NCBI GenBank assembly: GCA_030602245.1
Contig: JAUWAC010000002.1
Coordinates: forward strand, 124,001 to 188,000
Reading direction: 5' to 3'
DNA from: Marinobacterium sp.
Lineage (GTDB): Bacteria > Pseudomonadota > Gammaproteobacteria > Pseudomonadales > Balneatricaceae
DNA length: 64,000 bases
The position numbers and the translations under genes were made by a program. The notes beneath the pieces were generated by a model. The model was not told the DNA's origin. It ran no database searches and saw only the letters and a list, made by a program, of their open reading frames with translations. How positions within the stretch are numbered: position 1 is the stretch's first letter; every line of letters starts with the position of its first letter. Shown piece after piece: positions 10,612 to 27,366 of this stretch.

Positions 10612-12182
10612 TGGCCACGCGTATCTACGTCCCGTCCGACACCACGGCGAAGGCGCTGGGCGCCGATCGGCTGGCGCAGCGCATCGCGGCACTGGCAGCC
10701 CGGCAGGGGCTGGAGCTGGAGATCGTGCGCAACGGCACCCGCGGCCTCTACTGGCTCGAGCCGTTGCTTGAGGTCGACACCGCGCAGGGGCGCGTTGGCT
10801 TTGGTCCGGTCGAGGAGCAGGATCTGGAGTCGCTGTTCGATGCCGAATTCTGGCAGGGCGATGTGACACACCCGCTGGCCCTGGGGCTGGTCGAGGAGAT
10901 TCCGTATCTGCGGCGGCAGCAGCGTTTCACCTTTGCCCGCGCCGGAATCACCGACCCGCTGTCGCTGGACGATTACCGCGCCCACGGTGGCTATCGCGGT
11001 CTGCCCAATGCGCTGGCGATGGCCGCGCAGCAGATCGTTGATGAGGTCAGGGAGTCGGGCCTGCGCGGTCGTGGCGGTGCGGCATTCCCCACCGGTATCA
11101 AGTGGCAGACTGTGCTCGACGCGCCTGCCGATCAGAAGTACATCGTCTGCAATGCCGATGAGGGCGACTCCGGTACCTTCGCGGATCGTCTGGTCATGGA
11201 GTGCGATCCGTTCATGCTGATCGAGGGCATGACCATCGCCGGTCTCGCCGTTGGCGCGACCCAGGGCTACATCTACCTGCGCTCGGAATATCCGCTGGCG
11301 CAAAAAAATCTGAATGCGGCGATCGCAACCGCCTATGCCAACAACCTGCTCGGCGACGATATTCAGGGCAGTGGCAAGCGCTTCGATCTGGAAGTGCGCA
11401 TGGGCGCCGGCGCCTACATCTGCGGTGAGGAAACCTCACTGCTGGAAAGTCTGGAGGGCAAGCGTGGCCTCGTGCGCGCCAAGCCGCCGCTGCCGGCGAT
11501 CGTCGGTCTGTTCGGCAAGCCCACCGTGGTCAATAACGTGCTGTCGCTGGCGGCGGTGCCGTTCATTCTCGACCGGGGCGCCAAGGCCTACGCCGACGTC
11601 GGCATGGGGCGTTCGCGCGGCACGCTGCCGTTCCAGCTGGCCGGTAACGTGAAACAGGGCGGTCTGGTGGAGCTGGCATTTGGCCCCAGCCTGCGCGAGT
11701 TGATGTTCGACTTCGGCGGCGGTACCCGTAACGGGCGTCCGCTGCGCGCGGTACAGGTGGGCGGCCCGTTGGGCGCTTACCTGCCGGAGAGCCAGTGGGA
11801 CACGCCGCTGGACTATGAAGCATTTGCCAAAGTCGGCGCCGTGCTCGGTCACGGTGGCGTGGTGATGTTCGACGATACGGTCGATATGGGCGAGCAGGCG
11901 CGCTTCTCGATGGAGTTCTGCGTGGCCGAGTCCTGCGGCAAGTGCACGCCGTGCCGCATCGGCTCGACCCGTGGGGTCGAAGTGATCGACCGCATCCGCG
12001 CCGGTGAGAACGTCGAAGCCAATCTGGAGCTGCTGTCCGATCTGTGCGAAACCATGGTCGATGGTTCCCTGTGCGCGATGGGCGGCATGACGCCGTTCCC
12101 GGTACAGAGCGCGATGACGCATTTCGGCGAAGACTTTGTGAAGAACACGTCCAACGCTCAAGCGCTGGCGCAGGAGGTCTGA
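10611..12182 (+). CDS. fdsB: NAD-dependent formate dehydrogenase beta subunit (FMN/NAD-binding)
   Basis: This 523-residue protein joins an N-terminal ferredoxin/thioredoxin-like region to a NuoF-type module. The glycine-rich NADH/FMN loop GLRGRGGAAFPTG is near residue 150, GAGAYICGEETSLLESLEG near 265, and the [4Fe-4S] motif ESCGKCTPCR near 440. It takes electrons from the molybdenum subunit and reduces NAD+. ATG 10611 is chosen over GTG 10608 because GGAGG at 10599-10603 is 7 nt upstream and the TGATG overlap with fdsG indicates coupling. Confidence 0.94.
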   Translation: MATRIYVPSDTTAKALGADRLAQRIAALAARQGLELEIVRNGTRGLYWLEPLLEVDTAQGRVGFGPVEEQDLESLFDAEFWQGDVTHPLALGLVEEIPYLRRQQRFTFARAGITDPLSLDDYRAHGGYRGLPNALAMAAQQIVDEVRESGLRGRGGAAFPTGIKWQTVLDAPADQKYIVCNADEGDSGTFADRLVMECDPFMLIEGMTIAGLAVGATQGYIYLRSEYPLAQKNLNAAIATAYANNLLGDDIQGSGKRFDLEVRMGAGAYICGEETSLLESLEGKRGLVRAKPPLPAIVGLFGKPTVVNNVLSLAAVPFILDRGAKAYADVGMGRSRGTLPFQLAGNVKQGGLVELAFGPSLRELMFDFGGGTRNGRPLRAVQVGGPLGAYLPESQWDTPLDYEAFAKVGAVLGHGGVVMFDDTVDMGEQARFSMEFCVAESCGKCTPCRIGSTRGVEVIDRIRAGENVEANLELLSDLCETMVDGSLCAMGGMTPFPVQSAMTHFGEDFVKNTSNAQALAQEV

Positions 12183-12184
12183 TC

Positions 12185-15040
12185 ATGTTGCAGCATTTTG
12201 ATCCGAATAAAGATTATGGCACTCCCGCCAGTTTGAGTGAAAAGCAGGTCACGCTGGAGATCGACGGTATCGAGATCACGGTGCCGGAAGGCACCTCGGT
12301 GATGCGCGCCGCCGCACTGGCCGATATCAATATTCCGAAGCTCTGCGCGACCGATAACCTGGACGCGTTCGGTTCCTGCCGTCTGTGTGCGGTGCAGATC
12401 GAAGGGCGTCGCGGTTTGCCGGCCTCCTGTACCACCCCGGCCGAGCAGGGCATGAAGGTGTGGACCCAGAACGACAAGCTGGCCAAACTGCGTCGCAACA
12501 TCATGGAGCTGTATATCTCCGACCACCCGTTGGACTGTCTGACCTGCCCGGCCAACGGCAACTGCGAGCTGCAGGATATGGCGGGCGCGGTGGGCCTGCG
12601 CGAAGTGCGCTACGGCTTCGACGGCGAGAACCATCTGGATGCGCCGAAAGACACCTCCAACCCCTATTTCACCTTCGATGCCAGCAAGTGCATCGTCTGC
12701 TCGCGCTGCGTGCGGGCCTGCTCGGACGTGCAGGGCACCTTTGCGCTGACCATCGACGGTCGCGGTTTCGACTCCAGGGTGGTGGCCGGTCAGGACGAGA
12801 ACTTCCTCGACTCCGAGTGCGTCTCCTGCGGTGCCTGTGTGCAGGCCTGTCCGACCGCGACGCTGATGGAAAACGCCGTTATCGAAATGGGACAGCCGGA
12901 GCACAGTGTGGTCACGACCTGCGCGTACTGTGGCGTGGGCTGCTCGTTCAAGGCCGAGATGAAGGGCGATAAGCTGGTGCGGATGGTGCCCTACAAGGGC
13001 GGCGACGCGAACCACGGCCACGCCTGCGTCAAGGGGCGTTTTGCCTTCGGCTATGCGACCCATAAGGACCGTATCCGCGCGCCGATGATCCGCGATACCA
13101 TCGACCAGCCCTGGAAAGAGGTGAGCTGGGAAGAGGCGATCGGTTTTGCGGCCAGGCGTCTGAAGGAGATTCAGGCGAAGTATGGCCGCGAGAGCATTGG
13201 CGGGATTACCTCGTCGCGCTGCACCAACGAAGAGACCTATCTGGTGCAGAAGCTGATTCGCGCTGCCTTCGGCAATAACAACACCGATACCTGCGCCCGC
13301 GTCTGCCACAGCCCCACCGGCTATGGCCTGAAACAGACTCTCGGTGAGTCTGCCGGTACCCAGACCTTCGATTCAGTGATGAAAGCCGACTGCGTACTGG
13401 TGATCGGTGCCAACCCGACCGATGCGCATCCGGTATTCGGATCCCTGCTGCGCCGCCGTCTGCGCGAGGGGGCACAGCTGATCGTGGCCGATCCGCGTCA
13501 TATCGATCTGCTGGACACGCCACATCTGGGCGATGCGATGCACCTGCCGCTGCGGCCCGGCTCCAACGTGGCGCTGGTCAACGCACTGGCCCATGTGGTC
13601 GTCACCGAAGGACTGGAAGACCGCGATTTTATCGCGGCGCGTTGCGATGACGGTGCCTACGCCAAGTGGCGGGCATTCATCGCTGACGCGCGCCATGCGC
13701 CGGAAGCGGTTGCGAGCATCACCGGCGTGGCCGCCGAGCAGATCCGCGCGGCGGCCCGTGCCTATGCCAAGGCGCCGAACGCGGCGATCTACTATGGGCT
13801 TGGCGTCACCGAGCACAGTCAGGGCTCCACCACCGTGATGGGCATCGCCAATCTGGCGCTGGCGACCGGCAACATCGGTCGTGAAGGCGTCGGGGTGAAC
13901 CCGTTGCGGGGCCAGAACAACGTGCAGGGCTCCTGCGACATGGGGTCCTTCCCGCACGAGCTGCCGGGCTATCAGCACGTGGCCGATCCGGTCGCGCGCG
14001 GTCGCTTCGAAGCCGCGTGGGGCGTCACCCTCGATGATGAACCGGGACTGCGGATCCCCAACATGTTCGATGCCGCCATCGCTGGCCAGTTCAAGGCGAT
14101 GTATGTGCAGGGCGAGGATATCGCCCAGTCCGACCCGAACACCCAGCATGTCGAACAGGCGCTGCGTTCACTGGAGTGCCTGATCGTGCAGGACATCTTC
14201 CTCAACGAGACGGCCAAGTTTGCCCATGTGCTGCTGCCGGGCTCGACGTTCCTGGAAAAGAACGGCACCTTCACCAACGCCGAGCGTCGTATCAATCGTG
14301 TACGCAAGGTGATGCCGCCGGTCGCCGGCAAGGAAGACTGGGAAGTGACCGTGGCGCTGGCCAACGCGCTCGGGTATCCGATGGCGTATCGCCACCCGTC
14401 CGAGATCATGGACGAGATCGCCAGCCTGACGCCGAGCTTCGCCGGTGTCAGCTACGAAAAGCTCGAACAGCATGGCAGCCTGCAGTGGCCGTGTAACGCC
14501 GAGCACCCGGAGGGGACACCGATCATGCACGTTGACAGTTTCCCGATCGGCAAGGCGCAGTTCGCCCTGACCGAATTCGTACCCACCGACGAACGGGCCA
14601 GCCGTCGTTTCCCGCTGCTGCTGACGACCGGCCGTATTCTCAGCCAGTACAACGTCGGCGCCCAGACCCGGCGTACCGCCAACCAGGCCTGGCATGACGA
14701 AGATGTGCTGGAGATTCATCCGCACGATGCAGAGGAGCGTGGCATCAACGACGGGGACTGGCTCGGCATCTCCAGTCGTGCCGGACAGACTGTACTGCGT
14801 GCCCGCATCAGCGAACGCATGCAGCCGGGCGTGGTGTATACGACCTTCCACCATCCGGGCAGCGGTGCCAACGTCATCACCACCGACAACTCCGACTGGG
14901 CGACCAACTGCCCCGAATACAAGGTGACAGCGGTGCAGGTCGAAAAGGTCACCCAGCCGTCGCAGTGGCAGCAGAACTTCCAGGCCAACCACCAGCGCCA
15001 GCAAAAGTTTCTGCGCGACGCACAGCCGGAATCCCGGTAA
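12185..15040 (+). CDS. fdsA: NAD-dependent formate dehydrogenase alpha subunit (molybdenum catalytic)
   Basis: This 951-residue protein carries, in order, an N-terminal [2Fe-2S] domain (CRLC region), a His-Cys [4Fe-4S] site (HPLDCLTCPANGNC), two ferredoxin clusters (CIVCSRCVRAC, CVSCGACVQAC), a further [4Fe-4S] (CAYCGVGC) and the bis-MGD molybdenum domain. The catalytic residue is Cys374 in CARVCHSPT, so this is a cysteine and not a selenocysteine enzyme. It oxidises formate to CO2. The start is ATG 12185, two bases after the fdsB stop and preceded by AGGAGG. Its stop overlaps fdhD (TAATG). Confidence 0.95.
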   Translation: MLQHFDPNKDYGTPASLSEKQVTLEIDGIEITVPEGTSVMRAAALADINIPKLCATDNLDAFGSCRLCAVQIEGRRGLPASCTTPAEQGMKVWTQNDKLAKLRRNIMELYISDHPLDCLTCPANGNCELQDMAGAVGLREVRYGFDGENHLDAPKDTSNPYFTFDASKCIVCSRCVRACSDVQGTFALTIDGRGFDSRVVAGQDENFLDSECVSCGACVQACPTATLMENAVIEMGQPEHSVVTTCAYCGVGCSFKAEMKGDKLVRMVPYKGGDANHGHACVKGRFAFGYATHKDRIRAPMIRDTIDQPWKEVSWEEAIGFAARRLKEIQAKYGRESIGGITSSRCTNEETYLVQKLIRAAFGNNNTDTCARVCHSPTGYGLKQTLGESAGTQTFDSVMKADCVLVIGANPTDAHPVFGSLLRRRLREGAQLIVADPRHIDLLDTPHLGDAMHLPLRPGSNVALVNALAHVVVTEGLEDRDFIAARCDDGAYAKWRAFIADARHAPEAVASITGVAAEQIRAAARAYAKAPNAAIYYGLGVTEHSQGSTTVMGIANLALATGNIGREGVGVNPLRGQNNVQGSCDMGSFPHELPGYQHVADPVARGRFEAAWGVTLDDEPGLRIPNMFDAAIAGQFKAMYVQGEDIAQSDPNTQHVEQALRSLECLIVQDIFLNETAKFAHVLLPGSTFLEKNGTFTNAERRINRVRKVMPPVAGKEDWEVTVALANALGYPMAYRHPSEIMDEIASLTPSFAGVSYEKLEQHGSLQWPCNAEHPEGTPIMHVDSFPIGKAQFALTEFVPTDERASRRFPLLLTTGRILSQYNVGAQTRRTANQAWHDEDVLEIHPHDAEERGINDGDWLGISSRAGQTVLRARISERMQPGVVYTTFHHPGSGANVITTDNSDWATNCPEYKVTAVQVEKVTQPSQWQQNFQANHQRQQKFLRDAQPESR

Positions 15041-15876
15041 TGAGCCAGCGCATGAGCCAGCCGTCGCTGACAGGGGAGCAGCGTTTCCCGGTGCAACGCC
15101 GTTACGGCAGTGAGCGGGAGCTGGCCGAGGATTGTCTCGCCGACGAGGTCGCCGTGGCGCTGGTGTACAACGGTCTGTCCCATGTGGTGATGATGGCCAG
15201 TCCCACCGATCTGGAGGATTTCGCGCTCGGTTTCAGCCTCAGCGAGGGGATCATCGAGCGTCCGGATCAGCTGTACGGCGTCGATATCATCGAGCAGCCG
15301 CTGGGCATCGAGTTGCAGATCGAGCTGGCCAGCGCACGGTTTGACCGGCTCAAACAGCAGCGGCGTAATCTGGCCGGGCGCACCGGCTGTGGGCTGTGCG
15401 GAGCCGAATCGCTGGTGCAGGCGATCAGCGCAGCGAACCCGGTCGCGCCTGCACTTCTGCCCTCAGCAGCGGCGATTGAAACGGCGCTGCAGCAGCTGCG
15501 TGCGCACCAGCCGCTGCAAGCCAGTACCGGTGCCGTACACGGGGCCGCGCTCTGTGCCGGCAGCGGCGATATCCTGCTGCTGCGCGAAGATGTGGGACGC
15601 CACAACGCACTGGACAAGCTGATCGGCGCGCTCCATCAGACGGCCGACAGCCCGAGTGAGAGGGCACAGCACTTCGTACTGATCTCCAGCCGTGCCAGCT
15701 ACGAGATGGTACATAAATGCGCGGCTGCCAACCTCGGCAACCTCGTTGCCGTGTCGGCGCCCACGGCGCTGGCCGTTGAACAGGCCGCACAGGCCGGCAT
15801 CAACCTGATCGGCTTCGCCCGCCCGGGCCGCCATGTGATCTACACGACAGCAGAGAAAGAGCACAACCATGTCTAA
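15040..15876 (+). CDS. fdhD: Formate dehydrogenase sulfurtransferase FdhD
   Basis: This 278-residue accessory protein passes sulfur from a cysteine desulfurase to the molybdenum cofactor, which is needed for active formate dehydrogenase. The conserved C-x2-C is in TGCGLCGAES, and further landmarks are DVGRHNALDKLIG and LISSRASYEMVHK. ATG 15040 overlaps the fdsA stop, and its 3' end overlaps fdsD by 8 bp. The placement between fdsA and fdsD is the usual fds operon order. Confidence 0.94.
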   Translation: MSQRMSQPSLTGEQRFPVQRRYGSERELAEDCLADEVAVALVYNGLSHVVMMASPTDLEDFALGFSLSEGIIERPDQLYGVDIIEQPLGIELQIELASARFDRLKQQRRNLAGRTGCGLCGAESLVQAISAANPVAPALLPSAAAIETALQQLRAHQPLQASTGAVHGAALCAGSGDILLLREDVGRHNALDKLIGALHQTADSPSERAQHFVLISSRASYEMVHKCAAANLGNLVAVSAPTALAVEQAAQAGINLIGFARPGRHVIYTTAEKEHNHV

Positions 15877-16235: not shown

Positions 16236-16259
16236 GAAGTCTATATGGTGGGGCTAAAC

Positions 16260-17237
16260 ATGGACGATTTTTCCCCTTCAGACCTGAAGACCATCCTTCA
16301 TTCCAAGCGCGCCAACATTTATTACCTGGAGCACTGTCGGGTGCTCGTCAACGGTGGGCGCGTGGAGTACGTCACAGACGAGGGACGCCGCTCCCATTAC
16401 TGGAACATCCCGATTGCGAATACCACCACCGTGCTGTTGGGCACCGGAACCTCCATCACCCAGGCGGCGATGCGCGAGCTGGCCAAGGCGGGTGTACTGG
16501 TGGGCTTCTGTGGCGGTGGTGGCACCCCGCTGTTCAGCGCCAATGAGGTGGATATCGAAGTGGCCTGGTTTTCGCCGCAAAGCGAGTATCGGCCAACGGA
16601 GTATCTGCAGCATTGGGTGCGTTTCTGGTTCGACGAAGCCAAACGGTTGGACGCTGCGCGCCTGATTCAGCTGGCACGGCTCGACCAGCTGCAGCAACAT
16701 TGGCTGAGCAGCCGGCTGCTGAAGGAACAGGGGTTTGAGGTCTCAGCCGGTCAGCTGAAGCCCTTGTTGGAGCAGCATCGAGAGCAGATTCAGCAGGCCG
16801 CCAATGTGACGGCGTTACTCACCGAAGAGGCACGCCTGACCAAGCATCTGTTCAAGCTGGCGGCGCAGACGGTGGCATACGGTGATTTCGTGCGGGCGAA
16901 GCGGGGCAGCGGCACCGATCCGGCTAACCGTTTTCTCGACCACGGCAATTATCTGGCGTATGGACTGGGGGCTACCGCGACCTGGGTATTGGGATTACCG
17001 CATGGTCTTGCCGTCCTGCACGGCAAGACCCGCCGGGGTGGGCTGGTGTTTGATGTGGCCGATCTGGTCAAGGACGCGCTGGTGCTGCCGCAGGCCTTTT
17101 TGTCCGCGGTAAAAGGGGAACAGGAGCAGGAGTTTCGCCGCCACTGCATCGAATCCCTGACCCGAGCCGAGGCGCTGGACTTTATGATCGAGACGCTGAA
17201 AGACATTGCCACTCGCGTCGGAGGGGGCGGGGCATGA
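16260..17237 (+). CDS. cas1: CRISPR-associated endonuclease Cas1 (type I-F)
   Basis: This integrase of 325 residues inserts new spacers with Cas2-3. The start MDDFSPSDLKTILHSKRANI is the standard I-F Cas1 N-terminus, so ATG 16260 is preferred over 16245. The metal-binding C-terminal helical domain contains GLPHGLAVLHGKTRRGG and FDVADLVKDALVLPQAF, carrying the expected His and Asp ligands. Its stop overlaps the cas2-3 start by 4 bp (17234-17237), so the adaptation genes are co-translated. Nothing looks truncated. Confidence 0.96.
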   Translation: MDDFSPSDLKTILHSKRANIYYLEHCRVLVNGGRVEYVTDEGRRSHYWNIPIANTTTVLLGTGTSITQAAMRELAKAGVLVGFCGGGGTPLFSANEVDIEVAWFSPQSEYRPTEYLQHWVRFWFDEAKRLDAARLIQLARLDQLQQHWLSSRLLKEQGFEVSAGQLKPLLEQHREQIQQAANVTALLTEEARLTKHLFKLAAQTVAYGDFVRAKRGSGTDPANRFLDHGNYLAYGLGATATWVLGLPHGLAVLHGKTRRGGLVFDVADLVKDALVLPQAFLSAVKGEQEQEFRRHCIESLTRAEALDFMIETLKDIATRVGGGGA

Positions 17238-20200
17238 ACGTGCTACTGATCTCCCGTTGCAGCAAAAACGCGCTGACCGAGACGCGGCGCATACTGGATC
17301 AGTTTGCGGAACGCCGCGGCGAGCGCACCTGGCAAACGCCCATTACCTGGGATGGGCTGACGACGCTGCGTAAGTTATTGCGTAAAACCGCGCGTAAAAA
17401 TACCGCCGTAGCCTGCCACTGGATTCGCGGCCGGGACCACAGCGAACTGCTGTGGATTGTCGGCGATGCCGGCCGCTTTAACGAAGAAGGTGCCGCGCCA
17501 ACCAACACCACCCGGCGGGACATCCTGCGGCAGCAGGATGAGAACGATTGGCACACCGCGGAAGATATCAAGCTGCTGGCCGCGCTGGCCGCCCTGATGC
17601 ACGATCTGGGCAAGGCCTGTGAGGCGTTTCAGCGCCGGCTTCAGGGCAGGGGCGAGGACGGGCCGAACATCTATCGCCATGAGTGGATTTCGTTACGTCT
17701 CTTTCAGGCCTTCGTCGGCACCGACAACGACGCCGGCTGGCTGGCCCGCCTGGCGGATGAGGGCATGGATGAGCACGCTTGGCTGGACCGGCTGATACGG
17801 GATGGCCTTGATAAGGGGGAGCGCCACCCGTTCAGGACGATGCCGCCGCTGGCCTGTGCCATCGGCTGGCTGATTCTGACCCATCATCGCCTGCCGTGTC
17901 GCCCCGACCTTGAGGGCCTGAGAGAGATCGACCTTGAAGCGCCGCTGCTGGATCTGGACGCGCAGTGGAATCAGCACCACGACGGTGACGACCCCCGCCC
18001 GATCCAGCCCTACTGGACGTTTTCAGCCCGGCTTCCGGTCGCCACGGGACGCTGGCGCACCCAGGCCGCCAAATATGCCCAGCGTCTGCAGCAGCGTCTG
18101 GATCGGGCCGCCGATGGCTGGCTGGAGAACCCCTATGTCATGCATCTGGCCCGGTTGACCCTGATGCTGTCCGACCACCACTACTCGAGCCTTACCGCAC
18201 CCGGTGAGCGCGTCCGTGGCGAGGCCGATTACCCGTTGTACGCCAATACCAACCGCAAGACGGGGGCGTTGTGCCAGCGCTTGGATGAACACCTGCTGGG
18301 GGTGGCCAGAGTCAGCGGTCATGTCAGTCACCACCTGCCGACGCTGAGCGACAATCTGCCCCGGCTGGCACGGCACAAAGGCTTTCGACAGCGCAGTCAG
18401 GTGCCGCGTTTTCGGTGGCAGGATCATGCCTTTGATCTGGCTGAGGGGTTACGGGAAAAGGCGGATAAACACGGTTTCTTCGGCATCAATATGGCCTCGA
18501 CCGGGTGTGGTAAAACCCTCGCCAACGGTCGCATCCTGTACGCTCTGGCAAACCCCTGTAAAGGCGCGCGATTTTCCGTTGCGCTCGGGCTGCGCACCCT
18601 GACGTTACAGACCGGACAGGCCTATCGTGATCGCTTGAATCTCGGGGACGATGAGCTGGCCGTGCGCGTGGGGGGTAGCGCCAGCCGCCAGTTGTACGAA
18701 TTCTATGAACGCCAGGCCGAGCAAAGCGGTTCCGCCTCCGTACAGGCCTTGGTTCCCGAGGACAGCCATGTGGTGTTTGAAGGCGGTTTTTCCGATCACC
18801 CGGTGCTGCAAACGGCTGGCCACGATGATCGCATCAAGGCGCTGATCTCGGCACCGGTGTTGGTGTGTACCGTCGATCATCTGGTGCCGGCGACCGAGAG
18901 CGAACGGGGGGGCCACCAGATCGCCCCGATGCTGCGCCTGATGAGCAGCGACCTGGTGCTGGACGAAATTGACGATTTCGACCTGAACGATCTGCCCGCC
19001 CTGACGCGGTTGGTCTACTGGGCGGGCCTGCTGGGCAGCCGGGTTCTGCTGTCTTCGGCCACCCTGCCGCCGGCCCTGTCCGAAGGGCTGTTCCGCGCCT
19101 ACAAGGCGGGTCGGGAGATCTACCAACGCAACCGGGGCGAACCGGGAACGCCCGTGAATATCTGCTGCGCCTGGTTTGATGAGCATGATCGCCAGCATCA
19201 GGATTGCGCGGATGAGCACGCGTTTGCCTCGGCACACCGTGCCTTTGTGGAACGGCGCCAGCATAAGCTGGCGCAGGATCAGGTCCGGCGTCGTGCACAG
19301 CTGGTGCGATTGTCGTCTGCTACAGACGACGCGGAAACGCTGCGTCAGCGCTTCGCGCGGGATCTGCTGCAGCAGGCACAACGGCTGCACCAGGCCCACC
19401 ATACGATCGACCCCCACGCTGGTAAGCGGGTCAGTTTCGGGCTGATCCGGATGGCCAACATCGAGCCACTGGTCGAGGTGGCGCGGGCGATCTACCGCCT
19501 CGGCGCGGAAGCTGGCACATGGATGCATCTGTGCGTTTACCACGCCCAGTACCCCCTGCTGCTCCGTTCCGCCATCGAGCGGCAGCTGGATGGCGCCCTG
19601 AACCGCCAGGACGCTCAGGCCGTGTTTGATCGGCCCGAGATTCGCGGCAGGTTGGATGCCCACTCGCAACAGGACCAGCTGTTTATCGTTCTGGCCAGCC
19701 CGGTCTCGGAGGTGGGGCGAGACCATGATTACGACTGGGCCATCGTCGAGCCGTCGTCCATGCGCTCGCTGATCCAGCTGGCCGGGCGGGTGCGCCGCCA
19801 TCGTGTTGGCCCTTGCGACTCGCCCAATATCGCACTGCTGCATACCAACCTGAAGGCCCTGGAGCGGCCGGGCCAGCCCGCTTTCTGCCGTCCCGGGTTC
19901 GAGGACCATGACCACCGGTTGAACAGCCATGACCTGGCTCGCCTCCTGCAACCGGAGGAGCGGGAGGTCATCGATGCCCGGCCGCGCATTCTGCCGCGAG
20001 GGGAACTCCGGCCCAGGGACAGCCTGGTCGATCTGGAACATGCCCGGTTGCAGGCGCAGATGTTGGCTGAGCCGGTGGCGCCGGCCACCCCGACGGGAAA
20101 CCGCCGCCGGCGCCAGCGTTCTATGGCGCCGCCGCTGTCGGCGGCCAGCTGCTACCGCCAGCCCGGTGCCATGCTCACCGCCTTGTTGCAGCGCAAGCAG

Positions 20201-20536
20201 CGCTTCCGGACCAGCGCTGCCCAGCAGGACGATCTGGTGTTGCTGCCGGATGATGAGTGCCTGAACGTCAATCTGTACAAGGTGGAGTTCGACCGCAGTC
20301 AGCGTCGGGATCTCTACATTCCAGTAGACCACCTGTTCCACCCCGTCGAGCTGGAACCGGCCGAGGGCATCGTGACCTGGGGCGCGGAGGACTACTTGAC
20401 AGCACTGCAGGCCCTGGCGGATGAGATGGGATTGACGCCGGACGTGTGTGCCCGGCGTTTCGGGACCCTGTCCTTGGATCAGAGCACCCAGGGCTGGGCG
20501 TTTCATCCGGCGCTGGGTTTTACGCGAAGGCGTTGA
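17234..20536 (+). CDS. cas3: Cas2-Cas3 fusion nuclease-helicase (type I-F)
   Basis: This 1100-residue protein has the I-F-specific architecture. The N-terminal Cas2-like domain (about 1-95; MNVLLISRCSKNAL) is followed by an HD nuclease domain with HDLGKA at 123-128. The superfamily 2 helicase has Walker A ASTGCGKT near 420, the Walker B motif LDEIDDFD near 575 and LSSATLPPA near 605. It works with Cas1 in spacer capture and is recruited by the Csy complex to degrade targets. It is followed by an unusual 223-bp AT-rich gap before csy1, described separately. Confidence 0.96.
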   Translation: MNVLLISRCSKNALTETRRILDQFAERRGERTWQTPITWDGLTTLRKLLRKTARKNTAVACHWIRGRDHSELLWIVGDAGRFNEEGAAPTNTTRRDILRQQDENDWHTAEDIKLLAALAALMHDLGKACEAFQRRLQGRGEDGPNIYRHEWISLRLFQAFVGTDNDAGWLARLADEGMDEHAWLDRLIRDGLDKGERHPFRTMPPLACAIGWLILTHHRLPCRPDLEGLREIDLEAPLLDLDAQWNQHHDGDDPRPIQPYWTFSARLPVATGRWRTQAAKYAQRLQQRLDRAADGWLENPYVMHLARLTLMLSDHHYSSLTAPGERVRGEADYPLYANTNRKTGALCQRLDEHLLGVARVSGHVSHHLPTLSDNLPRLARHKGFRQRSQVPRFRWQDHAFDLAEGLREKADKHGFFGINMASTGCGKTLANGRILYALANPCKGARFSVALGLRTLTLQTGQAYRDRLNLGDDELAVRVGGSASRQLYEFYERQAEQSGSASVQALVPEDSHVVFEGGFSDHPVLQTAGHDDRIKALISAPVLVCTVDHLVPATESERGGHQIAPMLRLMSSDLVLDEIDDFDLNDLPALTRLVYWAGLLGSRVLLSSATLPPALSEGLFRAYKAGREIYQRNRGEPGTPVNICCAWFDEHDRQHQDCADEHAFASAHRAFVERRQHKLAQDQVRRRAQLVRLSSATDDAETLRQRFARDLLQQAQRLHQAHHTIDPHAGKRVSFGLIRMANIEPLVEVARAIYRLGAEAGTWMHLCVYHAQYPLLLRSAIERQLDGALNRQDAQAVFDRPEIRGRLDAHSQQDQLFIVLASPVSEVGRDHDYDWAIVEPSSMRSLIQLAGRVRRHRVGPCDSPNIALLHTNLKALERPGQPAFCRPGFEDHDHRLNSHDLARLLQPEEREVIDARPRILPRGELRPRDSLVDLEHARLQAQMLAEPVAPATPTGNRRRRQRSMAPPLSAASCYRQPGAMLTALLQRKQRFRTSAAQQDDLVLLPDDECLNVNLYKVEFDRSQRRDLYIPVDHLFHPVELEPAEGIVTWGAEDYLTALQALADEMGLTPDVCARRFGTLSLDQSTQGWAFHPALGFTRRR

Positions 20537-20564
20537 AAATAAAACGATCTAGCCCGCCAACTAT

Positions 20565-20636
20565 TGATGCTGCCTGCGCGGCAGAAAGAAAAGCTAAACG
20601 CAATTTTTATCAGCTGTCTACTCGACAGTAGGGACA
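20565..20636 (+). ncRNA. Putative mini-CRISPR guide RNA: two degenerate repeats around a short pseudo-spacer
   Basis: In the cas2-3/csy1 gap, pseudo-repeat 1 has stem CTGCC (20570-20574), a 5-nt loop, and GGCAG (20580-20584), then AGAAA (20587-20591). The stem is identical to that of the array repeats, with a changed loop. Pseudo-repeat 2 has CTGTC (20614-20618), a 5-nt loop and GACAG (20624-20628), with a compensatory C-G to T-A change. Cleavage by Cas6f after each stem would release a 44-nt RNA (20585-20628): an 8-nt handle, a 16-nt guide and a 20-nt hairpin part, against 60 nt for normal crRNA. Such degenerate mini-arrays are known as CreA antitoxin or CreR Cas-regulating RNAs in other loci. 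Transcription here is inferred, not shown. Confidence 0.6.
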
Positions 20637-20655
20637 CTGTAGTTGAAATTTTTAT

Positions 20656-20672
20656 AAAAGTTAAACTCAATT
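20656..20672 (+). promoter_or_regulatory. Near-copy of the pseudo-spacer upstream of csy1 (possible guide target)
   Basis: AAAAGTTAAACTCAATT at this position matches AAAAGCTAAACGCAATT at 20589-20605 in 15 of 17 bases. The two mismatches are exactly six bases apart, which is the spacing of the flipped-out, unpaired guide bases in Csy complexes. It lies about 90 bp before the csy1 ATG, in the likely csy promoter zone. Against a targeting role, the flank reads AA and not the CC motif that I-F systems use. A regulatory role is therefore open. Confidence 0.4.
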
Positions 20673-20759
20673 GGTTGAAAATCTCATTGGGTTTACTAGT
20701 TTTAGAAAAAGAGGGGAAGTTAACCCGCTTCTCTGGAGCGAACTCTAAGGAAGATCGTA

Positions 20760-22055
20760 ATGAAAAGCCTAGTTCAGGAAGAAGGGCGAGCGCTGCGTCA
20801 GTTGATGCAGACGTTTATTGGCGACCGCCTGGCCGCCAAAGTGGAAAAACTGGAGCCCGATGACCCGAAATACGCGGCGCTTCAGGCGCAGTACCAATTC
20901 GACAACTGGATTGAGGACGCCGCCCGACGCGTCGGGCAACTGCAGGTGGTGACGCACACGCTGAAAGCGATCCACCCCGATGCCAAAGGCACCAATCTGT
21001 TTGTGCCCCCCGAAAACCTGCCGGATATTCCTGCGATTGGCAGCCACTTGCTGGGGGAGGACTACGCCACCGATGTGGTCGGGAACGCGGCGGCCCTGGA
21101 CGTATACAAGTTCCTGAAGCTCGAATATGAAGGCAAGACGCTGCTGGCCCGTGCCCTCGAGATGGATCCGGCCCTGCTGGCGGCGCTGAGCGATGATCCG
21201 GATCAGGCACGGGAGTGGGTACAATCCTTCGCCGCCATTACCCAGGCCAAAGGCAGTCATCGCAGCAGTACCCGAGCCAAGCAGATTTACTGGTTGGTCG
21301 GGGAGGACCCGACGCAGGATGACGATTTCCACCTGCTGGCGCCGCTGTACCCCTCCGCACTGGTCCATCGTATCTATCAGCGCATTCAGCACGACCGTTT
21401 CAGCGATGAGGCCAAGGCGGCTCGTCAGGCGCACCGTGAGAAAAAGCCTGCTGAAACGGGGTACGTGGACTACCTCCATCTGGCAACCCAGAAACTGGGG
21501 GGGACCAAACCGCAAAATATCTCCCAACTCAACAGCGAGCGTGGCGGCAATAACTACCTGTTGGCGTCCTTGCCGCCGACCTGGCATTCCCGCGACAACC
21601 GGCCTCCCTTGCATGGGGATTCTGTGTTTCCCCGCTTCATGCGCCAGCGTCAACCGCGCGGGTTGATGGAGACATTGCAGGCCTTTTTGCGCGGCAACCC
21701 GCCGGCCAACAGGCACACCCGTTTGCGGGTCGACGCCTTGGTCGATGCCCTGATCGAGGAGCTGATCCTGTTCAGCGCCCATCTCCATCAACTGGAGCCG
21801 GGCTGGAGCGCTGAGCCGGAGTGCCGGCTGGTTGAAGCGGAGCAACTGTGGCTGGACCCGGGACGAGCCGAGCAGGACGAGGCCTTTTCGGCGCGCCGAA
21901 GCGCGGGCGACTGGGTTGATGAGGTGCAAAATCGGTTTGCCAATCAGGTTAACCGGGCGCTGCGGGAGCTGCCCGTGGGAGACCACGAACAGCGCGAATG
22001 GCGCCGCCGTATCGATCGAAAACTGAATGCACTGCGGGAGGTGATCGATGACTGA
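20760..22055 (+). CDS. csy1: Type I-F Cascade large subunit Csy1 (Cas8f)
   Basis: This 431-residue protein, with Csy2, forms the tail of the Csy complex and reads the CC PAM. It shows the Csy1 features TNLFVPPENLPDIPAIGSHLL near 80-100, GGTKPQNISQLNSERGGNNYLLASLPP near 245-270, and a lysine/arginine-rich middle. The start is ATG 20760 with AAGGA about 8 nt upstream. It begins the csy1-2-3-cas6f operon and overlaps csy2 by 8 bp. The preceding AT-rich gap implies that it has its own promoter. Confidence 0.95.
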   Translation: MKSLVQEEGRALRQLMQTFIGDRLAAKVEKLEPDDPKYAALQAQYQFDNWIEDAARRVGQLQVVTHTLKAIHPDAKGTNLFVPPENLPDIPAIGSHLLGEDYATDVVGNAAALDVYKFLKLEYEGKTLLARALEMDPALLAALSDDPDQAREWVQSFAAITQAKGSHRSSTRAKQIYWLVGEDPTQDDDFHLLAPLYPSALVHRIYQRIQHDRFSDEAKAARQAHREKKPAETGYVDYLHLATQKLGGTKPQNISQLNSERGGNNYLLASLPPTWHSRDNRPPLHGDSVFPRFMRQRQPRGLMETLQAFLRGNPPANRHTRLRVDALVDALIEELILFSAHLHQLEPGWSAEPECRLVEAEQLWLDPGRAEQDEAFSARRSAGDWVDEVQNRFANQVNRALRELPVGDHEQREWRRRIDRKLNALREVIDD

Positions 22056-23025
22056 ACCCGGTACCCTGCTGATCCTGCCACGGCTGCGCATCCAGAATGC
22101 CAACGCGATTTCCGGCGTGCTGACCTGGGGCTTCCCGGCCATGACCGCTTTTGTGGGGCTGATGCACGCACTGGAGCGCAAGTGCCTGGCCCATGGCCTG
22201 GAGGTGGCCTTCCCCGGTATCGGCGTTGTCTGCCATCAGCATGAGGCGCAGGTGACGACCGGTGGCTACACCCGTGCTTTCCACCTGACCCGCAACCCGG
22301 TGGACAAAACCGGCAAGACGGCTGCGATCGTGGAGGAGGGGCGTATCCACCTGGAGATCAGTCTGATCCTCGAGGTCGACTTGCAGGATATGCGCTTGAG
22401 TAGCGATCAGGATGAAGCGGAGTTTGCCGAACGGGTGGCGGAGCTGCTCACGACCCTGCGCGTGGCGGGCGGGACGATCCAGCCGCCCTTGCCGGGCAAG
22501 CGGCAGCACCGTCCCAGCCTGTTAGCGGTCGACTCTTCACCGGAGGTTCGGATGCGCCAGCTGCGCCGGCTCCGGCAACAGCTGCTGCCGGGATTCGCCC
22601 TGGTACTGCGGGACGACCTCCTGCAACAGCACCTCGGGACGATGCGGCAAACCGACCCCGACGCTGATCTGCTGGATGCCTGGCTGGATCTGTCACGTTT
22701 GAACCACGAATGCCGTGCAACGGACGAGGGTATCGAATGGCTCATCCGGCGTGACTACCCGGGCTGGCTGGTGCCCATTCCCATCGGTTTTACGGCACTG
22801 TCGGAACTGTATGGGGCCGGCGAAGTAGAAGCGGCTCGCGACCCAACGACGCCGTTCCGGTTCGTAGAGGGGATTTACTCCCTCGGTCAGTGGGTCAGCC
22901 CGCACCGCTTTAACGCTTTCAATGATTTCCTCTGGTATGTGGACAACGATCCGGATACCGGCATCTACCGCTTGAACAATGACTATCACCTGACTGCCCA
23001 GCGTGACGAAGAAAAGGAGCTTTGA
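22048..23025 (+). CDS. csy2: Type I-F Cascade subunit Csy2 (Cas5f)
   Basis: This 325-residue Cas5-like protein binds the crRNA 5' handle with Csy1. The N-terminus [29 protein letters not shown] and the C-terminal stretch [21 protein letters not shown] are typical of Csy2. ATG 22048 has a strong GGGAGG upstream inside csy1, which it overlaps by 8 bp. It is followed by csy3 after a single base. Confidence 0.95.
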
Positions 23026-23026
23026 C

Positions 23027-24064
23027 ATGGCCAAGCAAGAAACCCTGAAGACCGCCTCCGTACTGGCATTTGAGCGGAAATTGGATGTGTCCGATGCCCT
23101 GATGTTTGCAGGAGACTGGTCGAATCGTGAGGACGCGGATCGCTGGCAGCCGGTGGAGGTCCGTGAAAAATCCGTGCGCGGAACCATTTCCAACCGCCTG
23201 AAAACCAAGGACCAGGACCCCGCCAAACTGGATGCCGCGATCGAAAACCCCAACCTGCAAACCGTGGACGTGGCCACCCTGCCCAGCGACTGTGACACCC
23301 TGATGGTGCGCTTCACGCTGCGGGTGCTGGCGGGTGCCGGCACCCCGTCTGCCTGCAACAATGCCGACTATCAGCAAAAGCTGAATGCGGTGGTGTCGGG
23401 ATATGTCGAGCGGCACGGGTTTGGTGTGTTGGCGCAAAGGTATGCGGCCAACCTGGCCAACGGACGCTTTCTGTGGCGTAACCGCGTCGGTGCCGAGTCC
23501 GTCGAGGTGCAGGTATCCCGCCTTAAACAGGGAGCGCGCGAGCACAGCTGGCGCTTCGATGCGTTGAGTTATTCCCTGCGCGGTTTTGACCCGTCCGGTG
23601 ACAACGACGAAGGACTCAAGGCCCTGGCCGCGCAGATCGAAGCGGGACTGGCGGGCGAGCAGCACGTATTGCTGGAGGTGACCGCGTTCGCGCGCGTGGG
23701 AGCCGGGCAGGAGGTTTTCCCTTCCCAGGAGCTGATCCTGGACAAGGGCAAGGGAGACAAGAGTCGCACCCTGTATCAAATCAGCGGAATTGCGGGGCTG
23801 CATTCGCAGAAGGTCGGCAACGCATTGCGCACCATCGACACCTGGTACCCGGTGGACGGCGACATGCCGCTCGGCCCGATTGCGGTCGAGCCCTACGGTT
23901 CAGTTACCACGCAAGGCAAGGCGTACCGCCAGCCGAAAGACAAGGCGGACTTCTATAGCCTGCTGGACAACTGGGTGCTCAAGGACAAGGAGCCCACCGA
24001 GGGTGATCAGCACTTCGTAATGGCCACGCTGATTCGTGGCGGTGTATTCGGGGAGGCTGGGTGA
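23027..24064 (+). CDS. csy3: Type I-F Cascade backbone Csy3 (Cas7f)
   Basis: This 345-residue protein makes up the six-copy backbone that wraps the guide RNA. It starts [19 protein letters not shown] and contains the conserved region [20 protein letters not shown]. Each Csy3 thumb flips out one guide base in six. ATG 23027 is one base after the csy2 stop and has AAGGAG upstream. The length is normal for the family. Confidence 0.96.
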
Positions 24065-24065
24065 C

Positions 24066-24629
24066 ATGGATTACTACCTGGAAATCCGACTGCAGCCGGA
24101 TCCGGAGTTTCCGCTCAGCTTTCTGTTTGGCGCGCTCTACGGAAAATTGCACCGGGCGCTGGTGACGCTGGAATCCGATGACATCGGCGTCAGCTTTCCG
24201 GACTACAGTCTGTCACCACGGGCTTTGGGCAACCGTCTGCGACTGCATGGAACCGAAACGGCTCTATCGCGGCTGATGGCTCAGGACTGGCTCAGAGGAA
24301 TGGCCGATCACGTCCGGTGTTCAGATATCCTGCCGGTGCCGGATGCCGTGCACTACCGAACGGTTGCCCGGCGCCAGTTCAAAACCAGCAGCGAACGGCT
24401 GCGCCGGCGTCGCATGAAGCGCAAAGGCGAAACCCACGAACAGGCCGTCCGCGCCATCCCCGACAGCGCCGAGCAAACGCCGAACCTGCCGTTCGTGCAT
24501 ATGCGAAGCCACAGCACGGATCAGCACTTTGTTCTGTTCATTGAACAAGGCGAGTTGAGGGAGGAGCCAAGGGCTGGCCAGTTCAACACCTACGGGCTCA
24601 GCCGGCAGGCCACGATTCCCTGGTTCTGA
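24066..24629 (+). CDS. cas6f: crRNA endoribonuclease Cas6f (Csy4)
   Basis: This 187-residue protein cuts pre-crRNA at the base of each repeat hairpin and stays bound to it. The catalytic His29 is present (GKLH29), the serine region is MRSHSTDQHF, and an arginine-rich helix (RLRRRRMKRKGE) contacts RNA. The start MDYYLEIRLQPDPEFP matches the family, so ATG 24066 is used, one base after the csy3 stop. The array leader follows directly. Confidence 0.96.
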   Translation: MDYYLEIRLQPDPEFPLSFLFGALYGKLHRALVTLESDDIGVSFPDYSLSPRALGNRLRLHGTETALSRLMAQDWLRGMADHVRCSDILPVPDAVHYRTVARRQFKTSSERLRRRRMKRKGETHEQAVRAIPDSAEQTPNLPFVHMRSHSTDQHFVLFIEQGELREEPRAGQFNTYGLSRQATIPWF

Positions 24630-24662
24630 CCCTTTTTTATCCCTTTAAAAATTCAATATGAA

Positions 24663-24675
24663 AATCAAATGGTTA
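24663..24675 (+). promoter_or_regulatory. Leader-distal IHF site
   Basis: The sequence AATCAAATGGTTA matches the IHF consensus WATCAA-N4-TTR at every position. It lies 83 bp from the first repeat. IHF bending of the leader is known to guide Cas1-Cas2 integration in type I-E and I-F systems. Confidence 0.7.
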
Positions 24676-24729
24676 CCTGGCCCCTGTCAACAAGGGGTCA
24701 GGCGATCACCTGATTGGTTGTTCTTTAAA

Positions 24730-24742
24730 AATCAGTGAATTA
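24730..24742 (+). promoter_or_regulatory. Leader-proximal IHF-like site
   Basis: The sequence AATCAGTGAATTA fits the IHF consensus with a single mismatch (G for A at position 6). It ends 16 bp before the first repeat. With the distal site it gives the two-site leader layout known from other I-F systems. Confidence 0.55.
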
Positions 24743-24758
24743 CGGCATAACAGCTCTA

Positions 24759-27366
24759 CTTCGCTGCCGCACAGGCAGCTGAGAAAAACGGCCCGCGCGA
24801 GATCGCCTGCATCATCAACTTCGCTGCCGCACAGGCAGCTGAGAAACTGCAGGATCCGACCCAGCTGGCGCTGCTTAACTTCGCTGCCGCACAGGCAGCT
24901 GAGAAAGATCCGCATGCGGCATGGAGCAGGCAACCGGCCTTCGCTGCCGCACAGGCAGCTGAGAAAAACCTCCTGTCAGTGAATGGTCGCGCCGGTCCCT
25001 TCGCTGCCGCACAGGCAGCTGAGAAAACTTTGAGTACGTGGTTGCCCGAGAAAAACACCTTCGCTGCCGCACAGGCAGCTGAGAAAAAAGAGAATGAAGA
25101 GCGCATCAAGCAGTATCACTTCGCTGCCGCACAGGCAGCTGAGAAATGGCGTCCGGCCCGCTGATCATTGGTGTGGACCTTCGCTGCCGCACAGGCAGCT
25201 GAGAAATGCTCATGGGCCATTCGGGACAGGCGTGAGCCCTTCGCTGCCGCACAGGCAGCTGAGAAATGGTATTGGCAACCAGAGTACCGCAAGCCACTCT
25301 TCGCTGCCGCACAGGCAGCTGAGAAAGATCAGCTCCAGGTTCTTCACCTTGTCAGGCCCTTCGCTGCCGCACAGGCAGCTGAGAAAAAATCCGCGAACCA
25401 ACTGGCACCGGCCGTCGCCTTCGCTGCCGCACAGGCAGCTGAGAAACGCGACCTCACCATCGCGCCGACGCTACCCACCTTCGCTGCCGCACAGGCAGCT
25501 GAGAAAATCCGCCTGAAAACAACCCTGCGCACCGCCCGCTTCGCTGCCGCACAGGCAGCTGAGAAAAAACAGGACGTTGACGACACCTGTTTCGTAGTCT
25601 TCGCTGCCGCACAGGCAGCTGAGAAAAGATTTCAAGATGCGATCCTGTGTACTGAAACCTTCGCTGCCGCACAGGCAGCTGAGAAAAGATGCGCTGACGG
25701 GGCGGTTTGCCGCCGACCCTTCGCTGCCGCACAGGCAGCTGAGAAAGTCGACGTTGACCAGGCCGCGGATTTCGTAGGCTTCGCTGCCGCACAGGCAGCT
25801 GAGAAATCAGATTCTTCTTCCCGGCGTTTCATCGAGCGCTTCGCTGCCGCACAGGCAGCTGAGAAATGCTCGCGTGAAGCTATCAGCTCGCCCCCAATCT
25901 TCGCTGCCGCACAGGCAGCTGAGAAATGGTATCGGTTGCAGCCGTACCAGGGCGCCTTCTTCGCTGCCGCACAGGCAGCTGAGAAATTCTGGTACTCGCC
26001 GTTGGCGTCAGTGTTGAGCTTCGCTGCCGCACAGGCAGCTGAGAAAAAGAAATGATGAGCGAGAACACACTACCCGTCCTTCGCTGCCGCACAGGCAGCT
26101 GAGAAACAGCGGCCCACAGGGACATGAACCCGACGAACCTTCGCTGCCGCACAGGCAGCTGAGAAAAGCCAGCTTTGCCGCCTTAACTATTTGTTCCGCT
26201 TCGCTGCCGCACAGGCAGCTGAGAAACAGCATTTCCATCAGATCAGAAGGCCATAGTCCTTCGCTGCCGCACAGGCAGCTGAGAAACTCAGGGGCATCGG
26301 TACCAGATCGGCGAGATACTTCGCTGCCGCACAGGCAGCTGAGAAAACGCTATCCGGTCGCGGCCATCAACATCGAATCTTCGCTGCCGCACAGGCAGCT
26401 GAGAAACAGTTCTTCACGCCGTTCGACGTCTCCCGGGTCTTCGCTGCCGCACAGGCAGCTGAGAAATTCCCGAAACGATCCTCATAAGTATCGCTGACCT
26501 TCGCTGCCGCACAGGCAGCTGAGAAATCTGTCTATCTCCAGCTGCAGCAGGAAGCCATCTTCGCTGCCGCACAGGCAGCTGAGAAATTGCGGGACCAGAC
26601 CGACCGCCAGTAGTCCAGCTTCGCTGCCGCACAGGCAGCTGAGAAATTGACCGACGAGTGTCCGAGAATACGCTGTAGCTTCGCTGCCGCACAGGCAGCT
26701 GAGAAAAGCTCCGCATAAGTGCGCCAGTTGATCACCTCCTTCGCTGCCGCACAGGCAGCTGAGAAATTGCGGATGACGCGGGGCCGGAAGATCTGCGCCT
26801 TCGCTGCCGCACAGGCAGCTGAGAAATCACGAACGTGTTCCCCGTAGTAAACCTGGCCCTTCGCTGCCGCACAGGCAGCTGAGAAAAAAAACACTGTTGA
26901 ACTGAATGAGCTGGTTGACTTCGCTGCCGCACAGGCAGCTGAGAAAATAACACTTTTGCGTCGCAGATAATACGCATACTTCGCTGCCGCACAGGCAGCT
27001 GAGAAACCATGGCTGATCCAATTTGAGGGCGTTGTAGGCTTCGCTGCCGCACAGGCAGCTGAGAAAGGCCGGGCCGAACGCGCGGGCCACATGCTGCGCT
27101 TCGCTGCCGCACAGGCAGCTGAGAAATTGTGCTTGACCTCCCAGTCATCAGCGAAAGACTTCGCTGCTGCACAGGCAGCTGAGAAATGCTCACCGGCTGG
27201 CTGCCGTGGCCAGCCGATCTTCGCTGCCGCACAGGCAGCTGAGAAATTACTGCGTTGGAACAGGGTACACCGGTTCCACTTCGCTGCCGCACAGGCAGCT
27301 GAGAAAAGCCCCTCGTCGCTGTTCCTCCGAGGAAACCTCTTCGCTGCCGCACAGGCAGCGCTGACG
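24759..27366 (+). CRISPR. Type I-F CRISPR array, 44 repeats and 43 spacers
   Basis: The 28-nt repeat has the I-F form: CTTCG, stem CTGCC-GCACA-GGCAG, then the 8-nt handle CTGAGAAA. The repeat period is exactly 60 bp throughout, so all 43 spacers are 32 nt. Repeats start at 24759, 24819 and so on to 27339. The repeat at 27159-27186 has one change (C to T in the stem-loop region). The final repeat at 27339 loses its last bases (AGCGCTGACG in place of the normal end), marking the old, leader-distal end. No duplicated spacers were noticed. The crRNA strand is plus, and the adjacent cas6f should process it. Confidence 0.98.

Follow-up and report, generated by a model that had tools for sequence, protein, structure and literature searches.

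A probable CreR-type regulatory mini-array upstream of csy1 in a type I-F CRISPR-Cas locus

Examination of the gap between cas2-3 and csy1 in the window (the whole stretch of DNA that was analysed, 64,000 nt) revealed a minus-strand mini-array, made of two degenerate CRISPR repeats around a 16-nt guide, and a PAM-flanked target of this guide beside a promoter-like sequence that reads into csy1. The element, its PAM and target, the pattern of mismatches between guide and target and the position upstream of csy1 recur across type I-F loci. We consider it likely that the element is a type I-F CreR-type regulatory mini-array, and that the Csy complex loaded with its guide sits at the csy1 promoter and represses csy1-csy4 without cutting. 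The type I-F effector gene would then probably carry its own RNA-guided brake, and the strand on which the RNA should be looked for is corrected to minus. Regulatory mini-arrays (CreR, I-F CreA) are already published, and the window element is a well-supported further example. Standalone repeats reportedly form mini-arrays whose spacers are partly complementary to cas promoters, notably those of cas8, and a type I-F1 mini-array is said to have been shown to act as a regulatory guide (both attributed to Shmakov et al. 2023).

The type I-F set of the window is complete, with cas1, cas2-3, csy1, csy2, csy3 and csy4 followed by the array. The cas2-3/csy1 gap is 223 nt long (20537-20759, between the cas2-3 stop at 20536 and the csy1 start at 20760). 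The features on which the argument rests are the following:

16245-20536, plus strand: cas1 and cas2-3, upstream of the gap (PF01867; PF21384, PF22590, PF21802)
20562-20589, minus strand: 3' pseudo-repeat, 28 nt (hairpin 20584-20570), 18/28 letters equal to the array repeat
20570-20613, minus strand: predicted mature CreR-like RNA, 44 nt (8-nt handle, 16-nt guide, 20-nt 3' part), its ends predicted from a Cas6f cut after the stem
20590-20605, minus strand: guide, 16 nt, AATTGCGTTTAGCTTT, between the handle and the 3' pseudo-repeat, equal to the target except at positions 6 and 12
20606-20633, minus strand: 5' pseudo-repeat, 28 nt (hairpin 20628-20614, handle CTGATAAA at 20613-20606), 18/28 letters equal to the array repeat, handle 7/8
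20656-20672, minus strand: target (protospacer) AATTGAGTTTAACTTTT, 15/17 letters equal to the guide strand
20673-20674, minus strand: PAM CC (GG on the plus strand), adjoining the target
20675-20680, plus strand: predicted -35-like TTGAAA, immediately following the PAM, in the presumed csy1 promoter
20697-20702, plus strand: weak -10-like TAGTTT, with a 16-nt spacer from TTGAAA (8/12 matches in total)
20760-22055, plus strand: csy1 (cas8f; PF09611, 458.5 bits), first of csy1-csy2-csy3-csy4, the presumed repressed gene
22048-24629, plus strand: csy2, csy3 (cas7f) and csy4 (cas6f) (PF09614, PF09615, PF09618), the rest of the effector and the processing enzyme
24759-27366, plus strand: main CRISPR array, 28-nt repeat CTTCGCTGCCGCACAGGCAGCTGAGAAA, period 60

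A search against Rfam over 20400-25000 returned four array repeats and one match far below the cut-off, and a plasmid search with the cas2-3/csy1 gap gave no match. The main array carries two irregular repeats: the one at 27159 has CTGCT in place of CTGCC, and the last (27339-27366) is intact through GGCAGC and then reads GCTGACG, the usual degenerate repeat of a trailer end. Upstream of the CRISPR locus, 12044-15876 encodes a molybdopterin/iron-sulfur oxidoreductase subunit and an FdhD/NarQ protein.

Since a hairpin looks alike on both strands, the strand of the mini-array had to be read from its non-palindromic parts (handle, loop and flank). On the minus strand, the 3' hairpin CTGCCGCGCAGGCAG (CTGCC-GCGCA-GGCAG) is one letter off the array hairpin CTGCCGCACAGGCAG, and the 5' hairpin CTGTC-GAGTA-GACAG is followed by CTGATAAA, equal to the array handle CTGAGAAA in 7 of 8 letters. 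The best two non-overlapping 28-nt windows of this strand match the array repeat at 18/28 and 18/28, a sum reached in none of 2000 dinucleotide shuffles; a single 28-nt window scoring 18 occurs in 0.55% of them. These repeat and handle matches place the mini-array divergent from csy1, with two repeat-like elements in crRNA orientation around a short guide. Chance hairpins were ruled out by the shuffles of this repeat pair and by the survey described below.

The guide matches a site 85 nt upstream of csy1 that is flanked by CC, the type I-F PAM (PMC10097628, available text). Over the first 18 letters, guide strand and target mismatch solely at positions 6, 12 and 18; the 17th letter of the guide strand falls in the 5' part of the 3' pseudo-repeat, five letters of which follow the 16-nt guide. 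No CC-flanked site with at most two mismatches in 17 was found for the minus-strand guide in 10000 dinucleotide shuffles of the gap. This target is the sole exact occurrence of the pattern CCAATTGNGTTTANCTTT in the genome (2.39 Mb, 90.67% complete). Allowing up to three mismatches adds six sites, among them the guide itself, which lacks CC; a reversed control pattern gave two. The guide pattern also hit at least 120 stretches in viral contigs, a result which is uninformative because 15 specified bases are too few. According to the accessible parts of PMC12774636 and PMC5904413, type I effectors flip out one base in six along the guide/target pair and leave it unpaired. Mismatch at flipped positions only is what should be expected of a target read by an effector, and not of an antisense RNA or a duplicated stretch.

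The recurrence of the element was surveyed in 201 regions upstream of csy1 homologues, 197 of them of at least 1500 bases. They came from several csy1 searches, one of which contributed 52 of its 78 genomes with a match and another 50 of 59. For G670 and G814 no pieces were used, and for G804 the second was omitted; loci L002, L036, L043, L044 and L054 were dropped as the same places as others, and L001 and L063-L189 (own-genome and viral pattern matches) were dropped as well. Candidates on both strands had to show a 5-pair hairpin (G-T allowed, loop 4-6) followed by a handle with at least 6/8 letters of CTNAGAAA. The next 17 letters were taken as the guide and matched to a CC-flanked site in the same region with at most four mismatches, no position being privileged and the guide itself being excluded. 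An element with its own CC target was found for 66 of the 287 hairpin-plus-handle candidates, in 64 of the 201 regions; weak stemless matches (L035 twice, L047, L226 and L232) were not counted. The other 15 dinucleotides in place of CC gave 0-8 matches each, and swapping regions between loci gave matches in 28 of 5705 trials. In the family sample, 8 of 21 csy1 loci carry an element, the window's own included. Gaps with an element have a median length of 385 nt (1 of 51 measurable gaps below 100) and those without have a median of 108 (56/117 below 100), the csy1 starts of the survey being rule-based estimates.

Some genomes appear twice in the survey, and the pairs of guide and target were thinned by guide similarity (at least 12/17 equal) to 50, among which some relatedness remains. 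In these 50 pairs, mismatches are concentrated at position 6 (34/50), 12 (32/50) and 18 (35/50), against 51/750 over the other 15 positions of 1-17; about 37/50 would be expected of an unconstrained base at equal base frequencies. Mismatches per 50 pairs are 0, 1, 1, 1 and 0 at positions 1-5, then 2, 4, 6, 2 and 5 at 7-11 and 2, 9, 7, 5 and 6 at 13-17; they reach 22 at position 19 and 25 at position 20, climbing to 39 at 26. Positions 1-5, 7, 10 and 13 stay paired, 6, 12 and 18 vary freely, and from about 17-20 onward pairing disappears. In an earlier set of 31 pairs, which overlaps the set of 50 and is not independent of it, positions 6, 12 and 18 were each mismatched in 23/31, positions 1-5 never. 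Position 6 is matched in 16/50 survey pairs, compared with 45% of off-targets in E. coli I-E (PMC5904413, available text). The set amounts to a natural mutagenesis of the I-F effector.

The Csy1 proteins of the window and of Marinobacter lutaoensis T5054 (L023) share 99% identity, which suggests that the window derives from this species or a close relative of it. The two gaps show three differences, one in the -10-like letters and none in the element, the PAM or target positions 1-17. In Marinobacterium iners and Oceanimonas smirnovii (Csy1 identity 77% and 74%) the gap is about 50 nt long and has no element, which indicates that the element is dispensable; in G024 (75% Csy1 identity) an element is present with an unrelated guide. 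It is unlikely that the window element is the relic of a regulatory mini-array that is now inactive, its target match being left by recent ancestry. The degeneracy of both repeats (18/28), the weak promoter and the short guide would suit such a relic, as would the predicted folding of the minus strand, where a competing CUACU/AGUAG hairpin is preferred over the 5' Cas6f hairpin. Folding was better than that of shuffles on neither strand (z -0.48 and -0.27). However, degenerate 5' repeats are common among survey elements, unconstrained mismatches should not be limited to positions 6, 12 and 18, and the few differences from M. lutaoensis spare the element, the PAM and target positions 1-17.

In the available parts of recent reviews (PMC12948488, PMC13131331, PMC12737573), CreRs are described as having degenerate repeats and a short guide with limited complementarity to a cas promoter, as being bound by the effector and as generally lacking a toxin gene. 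The window element likewise has degenerate repeats, a short guide and complementarity to a PAM-flanked site (CC target, 20674-20656) in a cas promoter, here a predicted one, and no toxin gene was found. CreRs are named there for types I-B, I-E and V-A (PMC13131331) or for type I and V-A (PMC12737573), and the window element belongs to type I-F; it is further set apart from the CreRs as presented in the accessible text of these reviews by its short guide (about 16 nt) and by mismatching at the flip positions, 6 nt apart.

The presumed csy1 promoter is weak, and a stricter consensus scan at 9/12 found no promoter on either strand of 20480-20800. A scan for intrinsic terminators over the same coordinates found a sole site, inside cas2-3, and none between target and csy1, and the 85-nt interval (20675-20759) holds no start codon or mini-ORF preceded by an SD. 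A promoter beside the target would therefore read straight into csy1. In the survey, the 42 pairs with a minus-strand target tend to have a -35-like hexamer 0-3 nt after the PAM, which reads GG on the plus strand. The best -35 match there averages 7.64/12 (8 or more in 26/42 pairs, less in 16); shuffles average 5.79 (sd 0.18), and no other block of offsets exceeds 6.57. Examples are TTGATA-17-TATAAT and TTGACA-16-TATTAT, to be compared with TTGAAA-16-TAGTTT in the window.

The same layout calls to mind the CreTA of some Acinetobacter I-F loci, in which the guide RNA is an antitoxin (CreA) that represses a small toxin RNA in the gap, csy1 being a bystander. In strain WCHA45 the I-F CreTA occupies the cas3/csy1 gap; its mini-array and toxin mini-ORF point away from each other, and the target is flanked by CC (Wang et al. 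2023, PMC10097628, here and below as far as its text was available). Its CreA has a 20-nt guide with handles of 8 and 20 nt, gives about sevenfold repression and needs Csy4 and the Csy complex, not Cas3 (PMC10097628). The window element shares with it the cas3/csy1 gap, the CC PAM, the 8-nt handle, the 20-nt 3' part, natural mismatches at positions 6 and 18, and pairing up to position 17, which the WCHA45 CreA needs (PMC10097628). In the latter, function is lost on changing any of positions 2-5, 7-9 and 13-17 and partly impaired by a change at 1; changes at 10, 12, 19 and 20 are tolerated, and positions 6, 11 and 18 lack pairing in the natural guide (PMC10097628). The survey pairing profile agrees with this except at 1, 10 and 11, which are mostly kept in the survey. 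The WCHA45 CreA represses the toxin RNA creT from a target downstream of the creT start site (PMC10097628), whereas the target in the window abuts a -35-like element that reads into csy1, with no toxin reading frame found.

The element-bearing survey loci bear on this point in both directions. Under a loose rule (ATG/GTG/TTG, at most 30 codons), 24 of the 50 loci hold one or more SD-preceded mini-ORFs between target and csy1, all 24 being among the 31 long loci, in which the target is more than 85 nt from csy1. An ATG mini-ORF of 5-20 codons lies there in 12/50. In the 19/50 compact loci, the window among them, at most 85 nt separate the target from the estimated csy1 start, so csy1 would be the gene served by a promoter in the window interval. 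None of these 19 has an SD-preceded mini-ORF, an absence partly expected from the short intervals. The 64 element-bearing loci include both compact (CreR-like) and long cases, the latter possibly CreTA-like, and some mini-ORFs of the long group may be unrecognised I-F CreTA toxin RNAs. For the window itself, an antitoxin of CreTA is quite unlikely: the 85-nt interval downstream of the target, where a small toxin gene would be expected, has no SD-preceded start or terminator-like site, though a toxin RNA of some different make is conceivable. The first-pass annotation had suggested that a mini-crRNA of CreA or CreR kind might tune csy expression or guard the system. The tuning is borne out by the PAM-flanked target at the presumed csy1 promoter and by recurrence in many I-F loci, and the absence of an SD-preceded start codon between target and csy1, hence of coupling to a toxin gene, speaks against the guard.

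The same annotation had placed two hairpins in the gap, and these are present, with starts 44 nt apart: CTGCC-TGCGC-GGCAG (20570-20584) and CTGTC-TACTC-GACAG (20614-20628) as written on the plus strand, both with 5-bp stems and 5-nt loops. The compensatory change that it saw in the second stem (C-G to T-A, the pair being preserved) proved to be one case of a general pattern, since stems covary among the I-F loci. Searching by handle and target only, with no stem required, gave 56 non-redundant cases, 44 of which have a full 5-bp stem with a 5-nt loop, in 17 forms that include CTGCC/GGCAG, CTGCT/AGCAG, CTACC/GGTAG, CTGTC/GACAG, CTACT/AGTAG and CCACT/AGTGG. Stem cells are paired in 245/280, against 48-121 with the partner slid by one or two letters, and full stems occur at 179 of 20100 random places. 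The orientation assigned to the hairpins did not hold. Both had been read as crRNA-like on the plus strand, giving a 44-nt guide RNA from 20585 to 20628 whose guide begins with GCTAAACGC. The CTGCC/GGCAG stem of the first hairpin is real; the plus-strand letters after GGCAG, where an AGAAA-type handle had been noted, are AAAGAAAA, a poor handle. The best plus-strand windows match the array repeat at 15 and 14 of 28 (the second hairpin alone also scores 14/28), a sum reached by 13% of shuffles. The plus-strand guide has no CC-flanked target, its best sites having 8 or 10 mismatches in 17 against two for the minus-strand guide, and 63 of the 66 survey elements lie on the strand opposite csy1. 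The plus-strand reading is very unlikely on these grounds, even though the plus-strand minimum-energy structure contains the second hairpin in Cas6f geometry and the first in a shifted register. A 44-nt product is predicted on either strand because the hairpins are palindromic, so the size given for the RNA and its guide of about 16 nt stand, and strand, guide sequence and ends are replaced (20613 to 20570, minus strand). In L191, L192 and L303, the three survey elements on the csy1 strand, the target is on the plus strand.

That the hairpins merely titrate Cas6f and Cas7f as decoys, with an irrelevant guide, is extremely unlikely: solitary I-F repeats (Racr) do so in phages (PMC10651486, available text), but the window has two repeats inside a cas operon instead of a solitary repeat in a virus genome, and a PAM-flanked guide-target match with a 6-nt mismatch pattern would have no reason to exist.

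For the CreR-type mini-array, the following sequence of events can be proposed. The gap would be transcribed from the minus strand, and Csy4 (Cas6f) would cut the transcript after both hairpins, releasing a 44-nt crRNA-like RNA with the 8-nt handle CUGAUAAA, the 16-nt guide and a 20-nt 3' hairpin end. This RNA would load into Csy1-4, and the complex would find CC-AATTGAGTTTAACTTTT at 20674-20656, directly upstream of the csy1 -35-like element. We propose that Cas2-3 would not be triggered and the complex would act as a repressor because guide and R-loop span only about 16-17 nt. Repression may lift once the complex is drawn off by ordinary crRNAs or anti-CRISPR proteins, a feedback response that we infer from published CreRs.

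Work on I-F1 complexes is indirectly consistent with repression that depends on the effector and proceeds without cleavage. According to the available text of PMC7296934, complexes remain purifiable and form R-loops when the guide is shortened 6 nt at a time to as little as 14 nt, and guides below the normal 32 nt (shortened by 6-18 nt) never trigger Cas2/3. The 14-nt guide binds weakly in vitro and suppresses phage in cells no better than a non-targeting one (PMC7296934). The 16-nt guide of the window lies between this weakly binding length and the 20-nt guide, which binds (PMC7296934). The proposed brake bears on the use of I-F systems as repressors and on the way in which anti-CRISPR proteins alter Cas levels.

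Two further regularities of the survey concern the effector itself. Guide length L and the number N of Cas7f subunits are related by L = 6N - 4 (PMC7296934, available text). Four of the 50 pairs have no recognised 3' stem and were dropped; in the other 46, the distance from handle to 3' stem falls into groups of 18-21, 24-26, 29-34 and 36-37 nt. A Rayleigh test supports a period of 6 (p about 1e-6, weakened by locus relatedness), and the fit is poorer for periods of 4, 5, 7, 8 and 9. Whole Cas7f steps predict such increments of about 6 nt. The window element, at 21 nt, is among the shortest in a range of 18-37. The second regularity is an excess of A in the target at the flipped positions 6, 12 and 18 (36, 31 and 28 of 50). 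Taken together, A makes up 95/150 in targets and 39/150 in guides at these positions, compared with 204/750 at the other target positions of 1-17. This is perhaps a base preference of the Csy complex. Neither regularity was met in the literature searched, which barely touched A enrichment.

We tentatively suggest, as a possibility that we rate well short of probable, that I-F regulatory guides load a purposely shortened Csy complex in whole Cas7f steps (about 19, 25, 31 and 37 nt from handle to 3' stem), and that at positions 6, 12 and 18 this complex favours A on the non-target strand (T on the target strand) whatever the guide. If true, shortened repressor complexes would make up an effector form in their own right, able to evolve and following a separate rule for reading DNA. 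The 50 pairs make two ideas testable, namely that 6-nt length steps set a state of 'bind but do not cut', and that the complex reads the flipped base. The 8 plus-strand targets are also A-rich at the flipped positions (14/24, against 30/120 elsewhere), so the A enrichment is not due to promoter direction alone. The window target has A at all three (20667, 20661 and 20655).
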